DNA of 62,842 nucleotides from assembly GCA_026391295.1 (NCBI GenBank), contig JAPLDS010000050.1:1-62842 (forward strand), in the 5' to 3' direction. A program made the position numbers and the translations under genes. Position 1 is the stretch's first letter. The number at the start of each line of letters is the position of its first letter. A model generated the notes under the pieces. The model saw nothing but the letters and a program-made list of their open reading frames with translations, was not told the DNA's origin and did not search any database. This document shows positions 5,539-15,843 of this stretch, piece after piece. Source of the stretch: Bacteroidia bacterium (lineage in GTDB: Bacteria; Bacteroidota; Bacteroidia; Bacteroidales; Prolixibacteraceae).

Positions 5539-8500
5539 ATGATTCATTGGACCAAACATATTTTGGGATGCATATTACTTGTATCCCTTGTAACCTTTAT
5601 AACCCCTTCTAGAGCAACTAGCCAAACTTCAACGAGTAACTCAACAAAAAACAAGCAAGTCTCAACTAAAAATACGGCAGAGAAGATTCAACAAGGCTCT
5701 TCTATGATCACCATGGACTATGCAGCATATCTTGCCCCAGTAGATCTAAATTACACCAAACCATCTCTTCCAATTGAAGGGATGCCAGTGGGAAATGGGA
5801 AGATGGGGTCCTTGGTTTGGATTGATCAATCGGGCTCCTCTATTCACCTGAACATTGGCAGAAACGATGTGTTCTACCGAGGTAGCGCAACCGCAACTTG
5901 GACTCAAGATACCCACCTTGACGGAAACTCAAAGGTTGGACATGTGGTCATCAATTTTCCTGAGAAACCGTTTGCAACTAAAGCGAATCAACATTTAGAC
6001 ACCTACAATGGCTACGAGCGAATTCAAGGCCAAGATGTTAGTGCTAAGATAGTGGCTTGGGAAGACAAAGATGTGTTCGCCATAGAAATCACCGACAATC
6101 GTCCTAATCCAAAGCCAATTGAGATTTCGCTAAATAGAGTTAGACCAGATACCATCCAAAATCTTTATAATTTTAAATCAACTTATTCCAATCAAAATAA
6201 TCAAATCTTACTTTATCAGATCGCAAGTGAGAAATGCAATACAGGAATAACCGAAAATGATTTCTACAACTCTTCCGCTTGTGTCTTGGCAATTCAAGGT
6301 AGAAAGGGGACTATAAAAGAGAATCAGTTTACTGTTGAAGCAGGAAAAGGAACGTTCACAGTCTATATTGGAAGTTCAGCGGGGATGAATTCTACTACCG
6401 ATGTCAAGAGTAGTGCTTCGGCACAAGTAGATGCAGCCATGAAATCTCACTTTGAGAATATCCTTTCGTCAAACCAAGAGAAATGGCACCAGTTTTGGCA
6501 AAAATCATTTATTTATCTCCCTCAGACCCACAACCAAACATTTGATAAAAGCCTTGATCAACATTGGCTTTACTACCTCTATTGCATGAATACCTGTGAG
6601 CGAGGCGATTATCCGATCAACGCAAACGGCGGTATTTTCAATGTGCAAGATGGGTATCAGATGTGGGGATCGATGTATTGGTGGTTTAATAGTTCGAGAC
6701 AAACACTTACCCCGGTTTTTGAGCAAGCCAACCACCCCGAATTAGCAGATCCCTATTTCAAAATGCTCTCCAGTCAGTTTGCGAAGAATAGTAAGGCTGC
6801 TGTTCAACAATGGGGAACCAGTAAAGATGCCGTCTATATCCAAGAGACATTTCCCTTCGATGGCCCTGAAATTTTACCAGATACGATCGCCCAAGATTTG
6901 CTAAATACGCTGGTTTATAAGAAAGAGCAGACGGAAAGACTTAAAAAGTTTGACGACAAACGTAGTGGCTGGGAGTCCCGATGGAGTATAGCGCACCGCA
7001 TTGGAGGCTATCACAGTCATCTTCTTTACAATACTGCAGAGGCTGCACAGTGGTATTGGGAACGTTACGAATACACCAAAGATCTAAATTGGTTACGCGA
7101 AAAGGCCTATCCCATGTTAAAAGGGACAGCTGAACTTTATCGCACACATCCATTAACTAAGAAGGAGGCCGATGGAAAATATCACACCAATAACCTAGGA
7201 TGGGCCGAAACATTCTGGGGTGGCCTGCGTGATGGTGTCAATGACCTAGCCTCCATACGAGGAATTTTCCCTGTGGCTATAAAGGCCGCAAAAATGCTAC
7301 ATGTCGATTCAGACTTAGTTCCGTTATGGCAAGAGATGCTCGACAATATAGCACCCTACCCAAATAGCTCAACACTTTACGCGGTTGGAGTCTTGCACAA
7401 AGCGGGAAAGGACGCCTATGCCATTGGTGCTAGACCAGATACCAAAGGGAAAGGTCCTGCAGGATCAGAACATGATCCACGGATGATGATGGTGAATATT
7501 TATGATATGGTGAACACCGAAACAAAACTTACCGATCCAGAATCGTGGCAGACAGCCATGAAAACCCTCGAAGGGCTCAAAGTGGCCGAGAGATTTGCTA
7601 ATAGCACCTATGAGGGGGAGATCCTAAGTCGATTTTACGGAGAAATGGCCAAAATGGGAAGCGTCGAATGGGTTAAGAAATGCCAAGATGCTTACCTAAA
7701 ATATTGGAATTCTATTCTTAACAGATATCCGAATCATATGCGTCGTTACGATGTGAATGAACAATCACTCGTAGTAGACTGGCAGCCTGAGGGGACGCTT
7801 ACCGAAGGATTATCAGCCTCTTTACTTCAATCAGGTGCCACATCGCCTGGAGGAGTGCCAATTTTGCGTGTTTTTCCAGCTTGGCCAAAAGAGCAAGATG
7901 CAAGTTTTAGTCTTAAAGCCAAAGGTGGATTCCTCGTTACCTCCAGTATAAAAAATAGAGAAGTCAACTTTATTGAAATAAATTCTACGCTTGGTGGATT
8001 TTGTACCATTCGCAATTATTGGGGAAATGGAAGTGTAGACCTTTATCGCAATAAAGTAAAAAGCGAAACGCTTACAGGCGATCTACTCGTCTTTAAGACA
8101 AATCAAGACGAAAATATCGTTCTCGTCAATAAAGGTGTCAACCCATCAAATGTCAAAGTGAACCTTAAACCAGCAAGCGAAAAAGTTGTAAACCTAGTTC
8201 CAAGTGTGCCTGGAAAATCTCCAAATTATTGGTGTTCGTGGTCGGCCCAAAGCTATATGTATGGACAAGGAGCACGAAAGATCGATTCGGTGCTTTACAA
8301 AGTTGAATCGGTGCCCAAATTCTCTTCTCTATATTTAAATGAGGAGGTTCTATTTGGAGGCAAAGGATGGCTTCAGAATTTTCATCAAAGAGTTAAAAAT
8401 GACCTATACGCGGTATTGGATGATGGCTGGGATATCCCAATCAACAAAGATTATGGCTATCGAAATTTCTCTAAATTAGATCCTACAAAATATCCCTCCT

Positions 8501-9756
8501 TTAAAGGGTCCATTGCAGAAAATTTGGTTCTCTTAAACAAAAAAACGATGGAGGCTGGCTGGCGTGGTATCGGACTTTGGTATAGGGCATACGAACCAGC
8601 TGTTGACAGTATGCGCAAGAAAAGTTTTAAAAGCGGGGAAGCTTATAAGACAACCTTTTGGACCGAGCGTTTAGAGTGGACAAAAAATGCAGGGATTAGC
8701 TATTGGAAAATGGATGGTGGAGGAGACGAAAAAGCCTATAAGATGATCACCAGCCTGGCGGAAAAAGTCGCACCGAACTTAATCATGGAACATGGAAATG
8801 CCTCTAAAGATGGTCCATTTAATGGTTACCCTGGAAGTGGAATGGTTGACACCGGCTATGTTCATGCAGGGCAAAGAATGCTTCAATATTCGGAGGTCAT
8901 GAGACTTCATGATCACTCGCCTCAGTTGGGGATTGCTACGATGCTCGATCGGATTTCAAGTATCCTAGCCATGGATAAATTAAAATCAACTAAGACAGGT
9001 TATTTAAATTGTGAAGACGAAGTTTATATAGCTGCCGTGCTTGGAGGCACAATGGGTATCATGCGTAGTCCGATGGTTGGCCTCCGTCCAGGCGACGACC
9101 CTGACATTTATCTAAAAGGTCCACGCCAAATCAAACGAAGGATGGACGAAGTTGTGCGAGCAGTTCGCTGGGAAAGAATTGCACCTGCTTTTGGTGCAAA
9201 AAACTTAGAAACCCATGTCGACACAAAAATTCTAACCGATACCTATAAATTTCCAGCAGGTGAATTCTGGACTAGCTGCGATGACTGGGATGCAACCTAT
9301 AAATCGGTTAACAAAATCGTTAACCAAGCTGCTCCAGCAAGAGTTTCACGCGGCATTTCCCTTCCAACGGTCAAGTGTGATGACGAGCCACCTTTTGTAA
9401 TTGCCTCACGGAATCCCAATGGAGCCATTAGTGTCGGAACACTTGGACGTATAGATGCTCAAAAGGGGTATTACTTTCCAAAAGCCGATGTAACCTTAGA
9501 TATCAAAATCAAAAGTGGCAAAATTGGCATCTTTGGATTTTACAAAACCCTTACGCTAAAATTTGAAAAGCCGTTGCAGAAATCGCAAATCTGGGCTCAA
9601 GACCTGACGGGTGATTACGCGATTGATATTACTTCAGAAGTGCAGCAAAAAGAAAATACAATTGTTATTCCAGGCGCAATAATTGAAAAAATCGGACTAT
9701 TAAATGCAACTGGTGGCGATCTTTCTGATCCCGCTATAGTTTTGGATATTAGATAG
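5539..9756 (+). CDS. Two-module secreted hydrolase: GH95/DUF5703-like module fused to clan GH-D-like module
   Basis: This is a 1405-residue protein with a signal peptide (about residues 1-28) and a short Ser/Thr/Asn/Lys-rich linker to about residue 55. Module A (about 65-900) begins with GMPVGNGKMGSLVWIDQSG, like the N-terminal domains of DUF5703 and GH95 proteins, and continues with an aromatic (alpha/alpha)6-like region. Module B (about 935-1400) resembles a TIM barrel of the alpha-galactosidase type (GH27/GH36, clan GH-D) plus a C-terminal beta-domain. Seen there: LDDGWD, GIGLWYRAY, and YWKMDGGGDE, whose Asp1059 sits where these families carry the nucleophile Asp (KxD). A candidate acid/base was not pinned down. 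It may remove two different alpha-linked sugars in sequence. The fusion is unusual and the family assignments are tentative. Element copy A lies just upstream. Confidence 0.65.
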   Translation: MIHWTKHILGCILLVSLVTFITPSRATSQTSTSNSTKNKQVSTKNTAEKIQQGSSMITMDYAAYLAPVDLNYTKPSLPIEGMPVGNGKMGSLVWIDQSGSSIHLNIGRNDVFYRGSATATWTQDTHLDGNSKVGHVVINFPEKPFATKANQHLDTYNGYERIQGQDVSAKIVAWEDKDVFAIEITDNRPNPKPIEISLNRVRPDTIQNLYNFKSTYSNQNNQILLYQIASEKCNTGITENDFYNSSACVLAIQGRKGTIKENQFTVEAGKGTFTVYIGSSAGMNSTTDVKSSASAQVDAAMKSHFENILSSNQEKWHQFWQKSFIYLPQTHNQTFDKSLDQHWLYYLYCMNTCERGDYPINANGGIFNVQDGYQMWGSMYWWFNSSRQTLTPVFEQANHPELADPYFKMLSSQFAKNSKAAVQQWGTSKDAVYIQETFPFDGPEILPDTIAQDLLNTLVYKKEQTERLKKFDDKRSGWESRWSIAHRIGGYHSHLLYNTAEAAQWYWERYEYTKDLNWLREKAYPMLKGTAELYRTHPLTKKEADGKYHTNNLGWAETFWGGLRDGVNDLASIRGIFPVAIKAAKMLHVDSDLVPLWQEMLDNIAPYPNSSTLYAVGVLHKAGKDAYAIGARPDTKGKGPAGSEHDPRMMMVNIYDMVNTETKLTDPESWQTAMKTLEGLKVAERFANSTYEGEILSRFYGEMAKMGSVEWVKKCQDAYLKYWNSILNRYPNHMRRYDVNEQSLVVDWQPEGTLTEGLSASLLQSGATSPGGVPILRVFPAWPKEQDASFSLKAKGGFLVTSSIKNREVNFIEINSTLGGFCTIRNYWGNGSVDLYRNKVKSETLTGDLLVFKTNQDENIVLVNKGVNPSNVKVNLKPASEKVVNLVPSVPGKSPNYWCSWSAQSYMYGQGARKIDSVLYKVESVPKFSSLYLNEEVLFGGKGWLQNFHQRVKNDLYAVLDDGWDIPINKDYGYRNFSKLDPTKYPSFKGSIAENLVLLNKKTMEAGWRGIGLWYRAYEPAVDSMRKKSFKSGEAYKTTFWTERLEWTKNAGISYWKMDGGGDEKAYKMITSLAEKVAPNLIMEHGNASKDGPFNGYPGSGMVDTGYVHAGQRMLQYSEVMRLHDHSPQLGIATMLDRISSILAMDKLKSTKTGYLNCEDEVYIAAVLGGTMGIMRSPMVGLRPGDDPDIYLKGPRQIKRRMDEVVRAVRWERIAPAFGAKNLETHVDTKILTDTYKFPAGEFWTSCDDWDATYKSVNKIVNQAAPARVSRGISLPTVKCDDEPPFVIASRNPNGAISVGTLGRIDAQKGYYFPKADVTLDIKIKSGKIGIFGFYKTLTLKFEKPLQKSQIWAQDLTGDYAIDITSEVQQKENTIVIPGAIIEKIGLLNATGGDLSDPAIVLDIR

Positions 9757-9873: not shown

Positions 9874-12800
9874 ATGAGACTTACGATCAGTTTTTTGGCC
9901 GTTCTAGTATGCCTATTCATCGTTGAATCGCCACTATTTGCTGTAAATACGACTGTTTCAAATAAGCAAAACGATATAAAATCTTTGCCGCGGCCTACAA
10001 AGAACCAAGCCCAATGGCAAGATTATGAAATTGGGATATTCTATCATTATGATATGAATGCATTTATCCCAAATTGGAATCATCGTAAATATGACAACTT
10101 TCCAAAGCCAGAGATTTTTAATCCGACCAAGTTAAATGTTAACCAATGGATGGAAGTGGCTAAATCACTGGATGCTAAATATGCGGTACTTACAGCTACT
10201 CATGGCAGTGGATTTATGCTATGGCAGAGTGATGCTTATCCCTATGGGATGAAACAATCGCCTTATATGAATGGGAAAGGTGACATTGTAAAAGATTTCG
10301 TGACGGCCTGTCGTACTAATGGAGTTGCACCAGGTTTGTATTGCCATATGCGTGTGAATGGATGGTGGCAGGCTGACCATCCGGGAGTCGTCAATAGAGG
10401 TAAAGGGGGGAATCCCGAGCTTCAAGCCAAATATGCCGCGTCTAAAATCCAACAAGTCAAAGAGCTTTGGGGAAACTATGGTAAACTGGCCGAAATTTGG
10501 TTCGACGGTGGTCTACCCGATTCAACCGCAGGATTCAATGTTATGCCATACGCCAAGAAACTACAGCCGAATGCGATGATCTATGGTGGTGGCGAACCTA
10601 AAATAGAGACTATCCGCTGGGTTGGATGGGAAAAAGGCAAAGTTGGCTACCCTTGTTGGTCAACAGGTACGAATCCCTTCGACACAAAGCGCGGCTCTCC
10701 CGATGAAAAAGATTGGTGCCCCGGCGAAGCAGATGTAGACATACTCGGTGGCGATTGGATGTGGAGTCCAGAGGCAGATAAAAAACTTCTTACCGTTGAC
10801 CAGTTAATGGACATCTATTACAAGTCGGTAGGGCACAATTGCAACTTATTAATTAATGCTGCACCTGGCACTGATGGACTAATATCGCAAGCTCAACTCG
10901 ACCGATTTAAAGAATTCGGACAAGAGATAAAAAGACGATTTGGAAAGAGTGTGGCCGAGAAATCTGGAAAAGGAGATCTCCTAGAATTGAAACTCACGCA
11001 GTCACAAACCATCGACCACGTAATTCTGATGGAACAAATCACCAAAGGTGACCGCGTTCGCGAATATACGATCGAAGGGAAGAATGGAACAGAATGGAAA
11101 AAAATAGGAGGCGGAAGTTGCATTGGTCATAAGCGCATCGAACGATTTGATCCTGTTGAAGTCAGTGCGGTTCGACTAAAAATAAATAGGAGTGTTGGAA
11201 CTCCGCTGATTCGCAAATTTGCCATTTACAACACAACTGGTTCAGAAGTCAAACCCAAACAAGCGCCAGAGCAAGTGGTCACCACTGAATCGTTAAAAGG
11301 TGAAACACCAGAACAGCGTACTGAGCGGATGCGCTGGTTTACAGAGGGGCGTTTTGGGATGTTTATTCATTGGGGTGTCTATTCAGTGCCTGCCGGAGAA
11401 TACAATGAATTCAGAGGCGGTGGTGAATGGCTGCAAGATCAAGCTAAGATTCCAGCTTCAAAATACGAGTTATTCGCCAAAGACTTCAACCCCGTTAAAT
11501 TTGATGCGAAAGAGTGGGTTCGAATTGCGAAAGACGCTGGGATGAAATATATTGTCATCACAGCCAAACACCACGATGGATTTAGCATGTACCGTTCAGA
11601 CCTCACCAATTGGGGTATTAAATCAACACCTTTTCAGCGTGATCCATTGAAGGAATTAGCAATCGCCTGCAAAGAAGCGGATATGAAACTTTGTTTTTAC
11701 TACTCCATCATGGACTGGCATCATCCTGAATGGGCTGACAGAAAACCGTATAACGACCTCTACACCAATGTGCCAATCATGGATCGCTATACCGAATTTA
11801 TGAAAGGACAATTAAAAGAGTTACTTACTCGCTATGGTCCAATTGGAATTCTATGGTTCGATGGCGACTCTGAGAAACCATGGACTCAAGAAGCTGGCTA
11901 CGATCTCTATTATTATTTACGTTCGATTCAGCCCAATCTTATTGTAAACAATCGAGTAGCAAAAGCAGGCCAAGTGCCGACCTTACCTTGGGAGTCGTGC
12001 ATGACGATCAATGAGCATTGGGGTTTCGACAAATCAGATCACGACTGGAAAACACCTACGACCATCGTGCGAAATTTAGTCGACTGTGCTGGGAAAGGTG
12101 GAAACTATTTATTAAACGTGGGTCCTACCTCCGAAGGACTGATACCTCCCGAAAGTGTGGTCCGATTAAAAGAAGTTGGCGAATGGATGCGTCTCAATGG
12201 TGAAGCAGTCTATGGCACGCAGTCACCACATATCGATGGGCTGCCATCTAGCTGTCATGCAACCCAGAAAGGAGATAAAATCTATCTCCATCTATTCGAA
12301 TGGCCAGAAAAATTTATCATCCCAATGAAAAAAAATATCAAGAAGGCCTATTTTCTTCTTGACCCAAAACAAACCCCATTAGCTATTTCAACAGAATCCA
12401 ACTTCCTCTACCTAACCTTACCGAAGGAAAATCCTGGAAAGATAGCTACCGTGGTATGCCTCGAGATTGATACAAAAATTTCGACTACCACGGAAATTAA
12501 AACAGTCAAAGCTGATCTAAAAAAAGATCCTATTGTGGCGGGTACGATCTGGCGCTCCGAGCAACCAGCAGACTGTCCATTTGCACCAAGTAGTGAGTTA
12601 AGCTCATTTATTTTCACAGGTAAACATGCCGAGTATACGCATGCCGACACCTGGTATCCCTCTTGGGCTTCAGACGGGAATCTTTATTCCCCATGGACCG
12701 ATGGTAAAGTCAATGGACTAGGAGTTTTTTCCGGAGGTCGTGACGCTGCAACAGGTCAAGCGACGATTATTGGCGACGATCCTTTACAGTTAAAATTCAA

Positions 12801-13674
12801 AAATCAAGCGATTTACAAAAGCGATCCAAGCCCCTACGGCGGAAGATACCCTTGTGGATCATTATTCTACAATGGAGTGTGGTATTACGGAACTTATTGT
12901 TTGATCGACGGCGGGAAAGGGTTAAACTGGGATATCTTAGGTCCATTTGTTGGCTTTAGAACTTCCACTGATCAAGGAAAAAATTGGGTCCAGACACCAA
13001 ACACACCAGCCAAGCCAATCTTTCCAGAACCACAGATATTCAAAGGTCCAGTGCGATTTGGATCACCGCACTTTGTCGATTTTGGTAAAAACATGGAGCA
13101 CTCTCCAGATGGTAAAGCTTACCTTGTAGGACATGGTGCGACAAAAGACGACAAACAACCCCGCGATGCGAATGCCAGCTGGATCACAGGTGATAAAATC
13201 TTTATCACGCGCGTAAAACCTAGTATTCAGACGATTAACGATGGCTCGAAATACGAGTTTTTCGCGGGCAATAACGCGTCTGGCAAAGCAATCTGGACCA
13301 GTGATTTTAAGAAAATCAAACCAATTGCCACCTGGAATAACAACATGGGCTGTGTGACCATGACCTACAATGCCCCATTAAAAAAATACCTGATGTGCGT
13401 CACCGATGGTGGAACGACGATGTCGAAATACAACACCTATATCCTAGAGTCCTCTCAGATTACGGGTCCATGGAAAATGTTGAAGTACCTGAAGAACTTT
13501 GGAGAAGCAGCCTATTTTGTAAATATACCATCTAAGTTTATTAGTCCAGATGGACTAACGATGTGGCTCTGTTATTCAGCCAACTGGATGGATCAAAAAA
13601 ATAAACGCTACAAAGCAACTCCGGACGGAAGTGCCTATAGCATGTGTCTCCAAGAGATCAAACTACAGAAATAA
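9874..13674 (+). CDS. Tandem GH29 alpha-L-fucosidase-like protein with C-terminal beta-propeller-like domain
   Basis: This 1266-residue secreted protein (signal MRLTISFLAVLVCLFIVESPLFA) carries two separate GH29-like barrels. Module 1 (about 35-450) has IGIFYHYDMNAF, an ATHGSGF motif and EIWFDGG with presumed nucleophile Asp211, then a small beta-sandwich. Module 2 (about 480-870) has RFGMFIHWGVYSVPAGEY, AKHHDGFSMY and ILWFDGDSEKPW with Asp663. Residues from about 885 to the end look like a GH43- or DUF4185-like five-bladed propeller (DTWYPSWASDGNLYSPWTDG; FGSPHFVDFG; the repeated pattern FRTSTDQGKNW). Module 1 is the more divergent of the two barrels. Three potential active sites in one chain would let it strip adjacent sugars of a fucosylated branch. 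The propeller's activity is unknown. Repeat copy B lies immediately upstream. Confidence 0.8.
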   Translation: MRLTISFLAVLVCLFIVESPLFAVNTTVSNKQNDIKSLPRPTKNQAQWQDYEIGIFYHYDMNAFIPNWNHRKYDNFPKPEIFNPTKLNVNQWMEVAKSLDAKYAVLTATHGSGFMLWQSDAYPYGMKQSPYMNGKGDIVKDFVTACRTNGVAPGLYCHMRVNGWWQADHPGVVNRGKGGNPELQAKYAASKIQQVKELWGNYGKLAEIWFDGGLPDSTAGFNVMPYAKKLQPNAMIYGGGEPKIETIRWVGWEKGKVGYPCWSTGTNPFDTKRGSPDEKDWCPGEADVDILGGDWMWSPEADKKLLTVDQLMDIYYKSVGHNCNLLINAAPGTDGLISQAQLDRFKEFGQEIKRRFGKSVAEKSGKGDLLELKLTQSQTIDHVILMEQITKGDRVREYTIEGKNGTEWKKIGGGSCIGHKRIERFDPVEVSAVRLKINRSVGTPLIRKFAIYNTTGSEVKPKQAPEQVVTTESLKGETPEQRTERMRWFTEGRFGMFIHWGVYSVPAGEYNEFRGGGEWLQDQAKIPASKYELFAKDFNPVKFDAKEWVRIAKDAGMKYIVITAKHHDGFSMYRSDLTNWGIKSTPFQRDPLKELAIACKEADMKLCFYYSIMDWHHPEWADRKPYNDLYTNVPIMDRYTEFMKGQLKELLTRYGPIGILWFDGDSEKPWTQEAGYDLYYYLRSIQPNLIVNNRVAKAGQVPTLPWESCMTINEHWGFDKSDHDWKTPTTIVRNLVDCAGKGGNYLLNVGPTSEGLIPPESVVRLKEVGEWMRLNGEAVYGTQSPHIDGLPSSCHATQKGDKIYLHLFEWPEKFIIPMKKNIKKAYFLLDPKQTPLAISTESNFLYLTLPKENPGKIATVVCLEIDTKISTTTEIKTVKADLKKDPIVAGTIWRSEQPADCPFAPSSELSSFIFTGKHAEYTHADTWYPSWASDGNLYSPWTDGKVNGLGVFSGGRDAATGQATIIGDDPLQLKFKNQAIYKSDPSPYGGRYPCGSLFYNGVWYYGTYCLIDGGKGLNWDILGPFVGFRTSTDQGKNWVQTPNTPAKPIFPEPQIFKGPVRFGSPHFVDFGKNMEHSPDGKAYLVGHGATKDDKQPRDANASWITGDKIFITRVKPSIQTINDGSKYEFFAGNNASGKAIWTSDFKKIKPIATWNNNMGCVTMTYNAPLKKYLMCVTDGGTTMSKYNTYILESSQITGPWKMLKYLKNFGEAAYFVNIPSKFISPDGLTMWLCYSANWMDQKNKRYKATPDGSAYSMCLQEIKLQK

Positions 13675-13724: not shown

Positions 13725-15843
13725 ATGATCAAACTAAACCGAACTAAAATAAGACATCTATTCCTAACGATCTTTTTTTTGGCTGCAACTTTCAATCTTG
13801 CCTTAGCGAAAAAGAATGAGATTCCTAAAATGCCCGCCTACCAATATCCTATTGAGGAGATTAATCCTACCAACGCAAATCATTGGAAATGGATGAAAGC
13901 ATTTTACAAAAACGAAATCTCTCAACCTCTGTTTCTAAACGAAACCGTGGAGCAAGCAACGTTGCGCGCGGCACATGTTAAGCCCTCCGCAGAAAAGCTC
14001 GCTTACCTCGACATGGAACTAATTACTTTTCCCCATTTTGGAATGTCTACATTTTCCGGACATGGACAAGGGACAGGTAAAGAAGATCCACGAAAGTTTA
14101 ATCCAGTAGCTTTTGACGCAAAAGAGTGGGTTAAATTTCATAAAGCCATCGGTGCTAAAATGATTGTTTTTGTCGCGAAACACCATGATGGCTATACACT
14201 GTGGCCTTCAAAATTAAACGATTATAACGTCCGAAACTCACCCTGGCGTGATGGCAAAGGCGATATGATCAAAGAGATTGCTGATGCCTGTAAAGAAGGT
14301 GGATTAAAACTCGGACTCTACATCTCTCTTTGGGATGAACACGATCCAAGATGCGATCATCCACGAAAAGGAGCAGATAAGATGACGCCGGAACAACGCA
14401 AAGCATACCAAGATTATGTCGAGCAGCAACTGATGGAGACCCTATTACCATATGGCGAGATTAGTGAACTATGGTTTGATGGTGCAGGGACCAATGGTGC
14501 AGAAGACTGGAATCGAATTTTCGAAAAATATTTTGCCTATGCTTCCTGAGTTACGGACACAAAGCTGGGTGCCTTATCACTTTGGACAGCTGATTAGCAA
14601 AAAACTTCCTACTGTAACCGATAATGTTGAAAATCTAAAAGGTCAAGACCTATTCTTCATCCCTCAAGAGGGAGATTTAGCGTTACTGAAAAAAGGTTGG
14701 CATTGGGACGGCGTAGGAGAACCGCGTTCACTGGAGATATTAGTTAACACCTACTATGCTTCTATCGGATCAGGTGCCAATCTTATTGTCAGTCCAGCCC
14801 CTGATCCAACAGGTGTTTTTAACAAACAGCAACTCGACCGCATGGTTGAACTACGTCAATGGATTACAAATTCGTTTAGTACCAATCTATTTAAAGATGC
14901 CAAAATAACTTTGACCGGTGGTCCCGCTAATTACAATGCCTCGAACTTATTCACAGAGGGGAATAAAAAGCCTTATATCACCAAAAATCAAACCAAAAGC
15001 CTTGTATTAACCGCTGAATTTAATGGGGAACAAACTTTTAACAACCTACTTATTCAGGAATATATCAACGAGGGACAGCGCATCTCTGCGTTTAAACTTG
15101 AGGCTTGGAAAAATGGAGCCTGGAAAGTTGTAACCGAAGGTCGAACAGTTGGCCACAAACGTATTCTGCCATTTAGTGAAATCACATCCGACAAAATTCG
15201 ATTCAGTGTAACCGAGGCTCGCGACATGCCGGCCTTGCGTTATATCGGACTTTACAAAGCTCTTCCCTACCGCGAAAAAGCTAAAGTCTATACCGAGGCC
15301 GACTATCAGCCAGCCTTGGCAGACAAACAGAATCTAAAACAAGGTTTAGCTTGGTCGTATTACGAAGATGCCAACAATGGCTTCCTCCCTTACCAAGAGA
15401 TCTTTACTTATCTGAATACAACGAAAGTAAAACCAGTTGCTACAGGATTCGATGTGAATCCGATGAAAGTGGTAAGATCAATCCTGAAGACTCAAAAAAG
15501 AAAGGAGCATTTTACGGTACGCTTCGAGGGTTATTTCAGGGCACCTGCACAAGCAGTATATACCTTTCAAGCAGGAGCAAACAACGGCTGTCGCATCTAT
15601 GTAGATGAAAAATCAGTAATTGAAAACGACGCATCGAGCGGACTTCCTACAGGAATTAAATCGGCTGATGTGCCATTACAAGCTGGCCTTCATAAGCTAA
15701 CAGTGCTCTATTATTTCGGCACGACAGGGCAGCCTAAACTAAACCTTGTAGTCGAATGGCCTGGAAATGCTGGAGGTGATGGATTTGGCTGGAATTCCTA
15801 CCAAAGACTTCTTCCATTACTTTGGAGCGAACCTTCTAAATAA
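13725..15843 (+). pseudogene. GH29 alpha-L-fucosidase with PA14 domain, interrupted by a one-base frameshift
   Basis: The first frame (13725-14549) gives a signal peptide, GMSTFSGHGQG, VAKHHDGYTLW and SELWFDGAGTNG (presumed nucleophile Asp252), then stops at 14549. A second frame carries on from about 14530 to 15843 with VPYHFGQ, SIGSGANLIVSPAPDPTG, an F5/8-like beta-sandwich and a PA14-like domain near the end (FRAPAQAVYTFQAGANNG, VVEWPG). Removing one A from the A5 run at 14524-14528 joins them naturally as DWNRIF-ENILPMLPELRT, giving about 705 residues. Both halves look well preserved, so this is a recent mutation, a homopolymer sequencing error or, less likely, programmed slippage. If intact it is an exo-alpha-L-fucosidase of the locus. 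The gene starts 51 bases after the tandem GH29 gene. Confidence 0.8.

Follow-up and report, generated by a model that had tools for sequence, protein, structure and literature searches.

Organization of the fused gene and its neighborhood

The window analyzed here is a 62,842-nucleotide stretch of contig C9 from a 2.9-Mb Bacteroidota MAG (G000). It contains an uninterrupted open reading frame encoding a 1405-residue chain, as originally predicted, with the following features:

5539–9756, + strand: whole fused gene, ATG start, 1405 aa
5680–8157, + strand: N module, residues 48–873 (approximately 48–870), related to GH95 and GH139 by Pfam, PDB profile, published GH139 structures (PMC12282258), conservation, and hhalign
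6688–6690, + strand: codon of N384, candidate base of the N module
7207–7209, + strand: codon of E557, candidate acid of the N module
8119–8193, + strand: junction and linker, residues ~861–885, placed by comparison with standalone N proteins (L002, L207, L208) and standalone C proteins
8194–9753, + strand: C module, residues 886–1405, GH27-like TIM barrel and C-terminal beta domain (AlphaFold, Foldseek, hhalign)
8713–8715, + strand: codon of D1059, candidate nucleophile of the C module
8911–8913, + strand: codon of D1125, candidate acid/base of the C module

By inspection, one probable Sec signal peptide, MIHWTKHILGCILLVSLVTFITPSRA, is located at the N-terminus, and no second signal peptide was found inside the 1405-aa protein. 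The chain is shown by these comparisons to be an in-frame fusion of two complete modules with conserved candidate catalytic residues, predicted to be secreted, and the proposal that it combines two unrelated catalytic folds is supported. The fused form was found only in three genomes of one genus, G000, G089 (95–96% identical over the C half), and G080 (~65–70%).

The gene lies in a glycan degradation cluster that includes at least seven sulfatases, several GH29 domains, a GH95, a GH139-like protein, a GH106, a GH27, a GH97, two GH20, a GH3, and GDSL and SASA esterases. GH29 matches numbered 16 in the genome of the window and 5–30 in genomes of the same genus. Elsewhere, the immediate same-strand neighbors of genes from the C-module family are most commonly sulfatases (12/97), followed by GH43 and GH97. 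Similar gene sets of Verrucomicrobiota have been interpreted as equipment for degrading sulfated methyl-pentose glycans (PMC8857213).

The next gene (9874–13674) is also a fusion, composed of a weak GH29 match, a strong GH29 match, and a C-terminal DUF4185 match under the cut-off, and is kept in G089 (94%) and G080 (72%). Downstream, a GH29 gene part (13725–14549) and a PA14 gene part (14452–15843) lie in different frames in the window, whereas a single frame holds both in G089 and G080; the copy in the window seems to carry a frameshift near 14450–14550, due either to mutation or to assembly error.

The C module and its family

The C half had no family match by sequence in Pfam, NCBIfam, or PDB; a weak Pfam match to MHCassoc_trimer was rejected as chance since it was under the cut-off and scattered. 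A scan of GTDB genomes nevertheless revealed a real and widespread family, far beyond chance, with 125 relatives confirmed and 80 kept, in Bacteroidota, Verrucomicrobiota, Kiritimatiellota, Planctomycetota, Acidobacteriota, Bacillota, and Pseudomonadota, including the cultured genera Bacteroides, Parabacteroides, Draconibacterium, and Maribellus. No relatives of the C half were found in plasmids. Conservation begins near residue 886, with the motif NLVPxxPxxxPNYWCxW, and the first barrel strand (~897–899) falls inside the conserved domain, so that the module boundary first proposed, at residue 930, was cut too late.

The AlphaFold model of the C half, built with the 80-sequence alignment (pLDDT 89.5, pTM 0.93), is a TIM barrel followed by a beta domain. 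Its top Foldseek match is a GH27 beta-L-arabinopyranosidase (E 2e-8), with the next, unrelated entry at 4e-5, and an alpha-galactosidase ranks first in a viral library. The fit to GH27 is modest, with TM-scores of 0.40–0.49 and an aligned rmsd of about 10 Å. The hhalign comparison of the family gave 88% for GH27, 21% for GH36, 1.3% for GH97, and 0.2% for GH29, pairing KMDGG (residues 1057–1061, with D1059 in the middle) with the KYD nucleophile motif of GH27 and RLHD with the GH27 acid/base region. In the model, D1059 comes after strand 4 and D1125 after strand 6, the positions at which GH27 enzymes carry the Asp nucleophile and the Asp acid/base, respectively (PMC1249566); the corresponding pairs in the GH27 enzyme OsAPSE are K224/D226 and R278/D282 (PMC12137362). 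The C module was thus shown by sequence or structure comparison to be a complete GH27-like barrel, in which D1059 and D1125 take the places of the nucleophile and the acid/base of GH27. The predicted barrel with its paired carboxylates, whose absence would have spoken against the original prediction, is therefore present, and the clan GH-D-like assignment with KMDGG as candidate nucleophile is borne out, with KxD at strand 4 and GH27 as the nearest family.

All 80 sequences share W901, D961, W964, W1014, K1057, D1059, E1084, R1122, and D1125. At the position that follows the invariant D961 (fusion residue 962, alignment A3), 50 of the 80 have D, 28 have H, and two have V, a split that may mark sub-groups acting on different sugars.

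GH27, a clan GH-D family of alpha-galactosidases and beta-L-arabinopyranosidases, shares with the C module the fold, the KxD at strand 4, the R..D at strand 6, and the C-terminal beta domain. In contrast to GH27, the C module has no Melibiase_2 match in Pfam, and its identity to the best structure is ~10%. None of the 80 family members scored above the cut-off of the Melibiase_2 (GH27) or Melibiase (GH36) models, and a single sub-threshold Melibiase match was detected (E 0.034). Since these sequence models miss the family, clan GH-D-like is used here as a working assignment that stops short of GH27 membership. On present comparisons, the family appears nearest to GH27 and lies outside every family of the libraries searched, which agrees with the idea of a new family as far as those libraries reach, although it may already carry a CAZy number.

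A GH27-like fold with its residues kept could also serve a transglycosylase, or a glycosidase acting on sugars that are not of galacto type, with only the specificity having moved. The distance of the family from all GH27 and GH36 models is in favor of such a shift, as is the variable position after D961, by which substrate contacts differ within the family. However, the invariant D961, K1057, D1059, E1084, R1122, and D1125 resemble the active sites of GH27 enzymes in their pattern (PMC12137362), and we consider a shifted specificity unlikely, while still deserving consideration. A retaining glycosidase that removes a galacto-configured sugar is the preferred reading of the C module.

The N module

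Two Pfam models matched the N module above their cut-offs, DUF5703_N on residues 80–227 (E 1.1e-9, 38.8 bits, cut-off 26.7) and Glyco_hydro_95_cat on residues 502–608 (E 3.5e-10, 39.8 bits, cut-off 27), while Glyco_hydro_95_C on residues 777–860 (23.3, cut-off 27.6) and the N-terminal GH95 domain Glyco_hyd_65N_2 (13.9, cut-off 27.7) stayed under theirs. A profile built from eight relatives matched 9HYQ (E 3.6e-26) and 9HMB (1.3e-17) in the PDB, followed by GH95 structures at 3.8e-13 and weaker. Both 9HYQ and 9HMB are GH139 structures, and the solved DUF5703 proteins belong to GH139 (PMC12282258). The hhalign probability was 100% for the GH139-like set and the GH95 set alike. An AlphaFold model of the N module from three window sequences (pLDDT 34) was discarded.

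In BT0984 (GH139), the base is N412 and the acid is E561, with N423 and E566 as the AfcA counterparts (PMC12282258). The GH139 pair aligns to N384 and E557 of the fusion in HMMER and hhalign alignments, and neither residue varies across ten fused and standalone sequences. The residue partners of the base, Q411 in GH139 and N421 in GH95, are absent: F383 occupies the aligned position of Q411, which is conserved in >99% of GH139. The position of the base-activating acid is ambiguous, with D747 as a candidate in a stretch of uncertain alignment.

The best solved relative of the N module is thus the GH139 2-O-methyl-alpha-L-fucosidase (BT0984; PDB 9HYQ/9HMB; DUF5703), which has the Asn base and Glu acid in common with it but differs in Q411 and in W683, for which no equivalent was found in the fusion; no fusion partner is described for GH139. 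The GH95 alpha-L-fucosidase/alpha-L-galactosidase (AfcA) type also shares the Asn base and Glu acid, together with a catalytic-domain model above the cut-off, whereas its N- and C-terminal models fall under theirs, N421 is not conserved, and the identity is ~17%. As Q411 of GH139 is missing, the N module is filed as related to both families and a member of neither, and is best seen as a putative (alpha/alpha)6 third branch beside GH95 and GH139, which sharpens the GH95/DUF5703-like assignment proposed earlier.

It is improbable that the N module has lost its catalytic activity and acts as a scaffold that binds or positions the glycan for an active C module. Such a role has been proposed for a GH139 homologue that lacks the catalytic acid and is inactive (PMC12282258), and F383 in place of Q411, together with the uncertain base-activating acid, would be compatible with it. 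However, all ten sequences retain both the Asn base and the Glu acid, and dN against G080 is equal in the two halves (0.23 for the N half and 0.21–0.22 for the C half, with dS saturated). For the C part, the comparison of G000 with G089 gave a dN of 0.022 and a dS of 0.33. Both halves are under purifying selection, and an active N module remains the preferred reading.

Distribution and origin of the fusion

Three independent assemblies (G000, G089, and G080) span the junction in frame, and no further fusion was detected among 295 genomes of the order or among 396 of the phylum at E 1e-40. The linker spans the natural end of the standalone N proteins to the conserved start (NLVP) of the standalone C proteins. 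Standalone C proteins are secreted, ~510–600 aa long, and have their own signal peptides; standalone N proteins are also secreted and ~830–870 aa long. Separate action of the two enzymes, either through cleavage of the secreted chain or because the fusion is a misassembly, is very unlikely. In its favor, the nearest outside relatives are two separate genes, and contig ends break the fused gene in G089 and G080; these breaks, however, lie away from the junction, whose coverage in frame in three separate assemblies rules out an assembly error.

A C relative occurs in 15 of 140 genomes of the family of the window organism. In a tree made with a quick method, the fused C halves grouped with three Verrucomicrobial sequences (SH-aLRT 99), apart from those of their own family, a position that suggests transfer. 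The same three Verrucomicrobia MAGs carry an N orthologue, 58–60% identical over nearly the whole module in two of them and 61% identical in the third, where the copy is cut by a contig end; no N-half relatives were found in viral contigs. In all three MAGs, the N gene is located at a contig 3′ end and the C gene near a contig 5′ start, in the same direction. In one of them, G433, a tandem repeat is shared by the two contig ends; it is dispersed in the genome (147 matches), and its best non-self match is the end of the C contig. Given the facing contig ends and the common repeat, the N and C genes are likely adjacent in these MAGs. Relatives of the GH139-like, GH106, and GH29 genes of the window also lie beside the C gene in two of the Verrucomicrobial loci (L059 and L063).

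The repeats in G433 (L063 1–250 and the 3′ end of L208) are tandem and intergenic, with a unit of about 126 bases and at least 147 matches, and contigs break there. The Verrucomicrobial L059, L060, and L063 genes were ruled out as contig-cut fusions by their own starts and signal peptides, and an 827-aa frame in L115 was rejected as a fusion, its upstream part looking like non-coding read-through. A chimaeric frame at the contig end of L059 (8300–9098), with an unrelated N-terminus and two separate fragments of an N-module relative followed by repeats, is a misassembly or a pseudogene.

The fusion joins the natural C-terminus of the N protein to the mature start of the C protein by a short linker, as expected if a stop codon, spacer, and second signal peptide were lost. 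Such a loss between neighboring genes probably gave rise to the fused gene, the parental pair belonging to a cluster that Verrucomicrobiota also have.

Proposed function

The fused protein is probably a secreted bifunctional exo-glycosidase. The N module would be inverting and may take off a terminal sugar of the alpha-L-fucose type, which could be 2-O-methylated, or alpha-L-galactose. The C module would be retaining and may remove alpha-D-galactopyranose or beta-L-arabinopyranose. The gene context points to a sulfated, fucose/rhamnose-rich glycan as the target, from which neighboring sugars would be stripped, and the tether may hold together two enzymes that each unmask the substrate of the other on one branch. 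The earlier idea of a two-sugar enzyme is retained for its two exo-glycosidase modules, with the sugars themselves only putative; processivity is unsupported, as both modules resemble exo-acting enzymes.

More tentatively, and at somewhat less than even confidence, we propose that the C module represents a new family within clan GH-D, frequent among Bacteroidota of gut and aquatic habitats and found in several other phyla, and at the same time that the protein would be the first natural chimaera to join an inverting GH95/GH139-type module to a retaining GH-D-type one, with two terminal sugars of different chemistry removed in succession from a single branch. AgaSK of Ruminococcus gnavus, a GH36 alpha-galactosidase joined to a sucrose kinase (PMC7688924), is likewise a clan GH-D glycosidase naturally linked to a second catalytic domain, but its partner is a kinase instead of a second glycosidase, and it belongs to GH36 and is not GH27-like. 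No paper on the C family or on the fusion layout was found in the literature search, in line with the original remark that no described enzyme of this layout was known. What is new is the fusion layout and, more so, a clan GH-D-like family unlisted in the libraries searched, for which a CAZy number may exist.

As no Pfam or NCBIfam model covers the C family, a candidate glycosidase that often lies beside sulfatases is invisible to routine annotation. The locus also provides a clear case in which one phylum has a single fused gene where another has two genes that are probably neighbors. The fusion to a fucosidase-type enzyme gives a direct hint to the natural substrate of the C family and makes its function testable.
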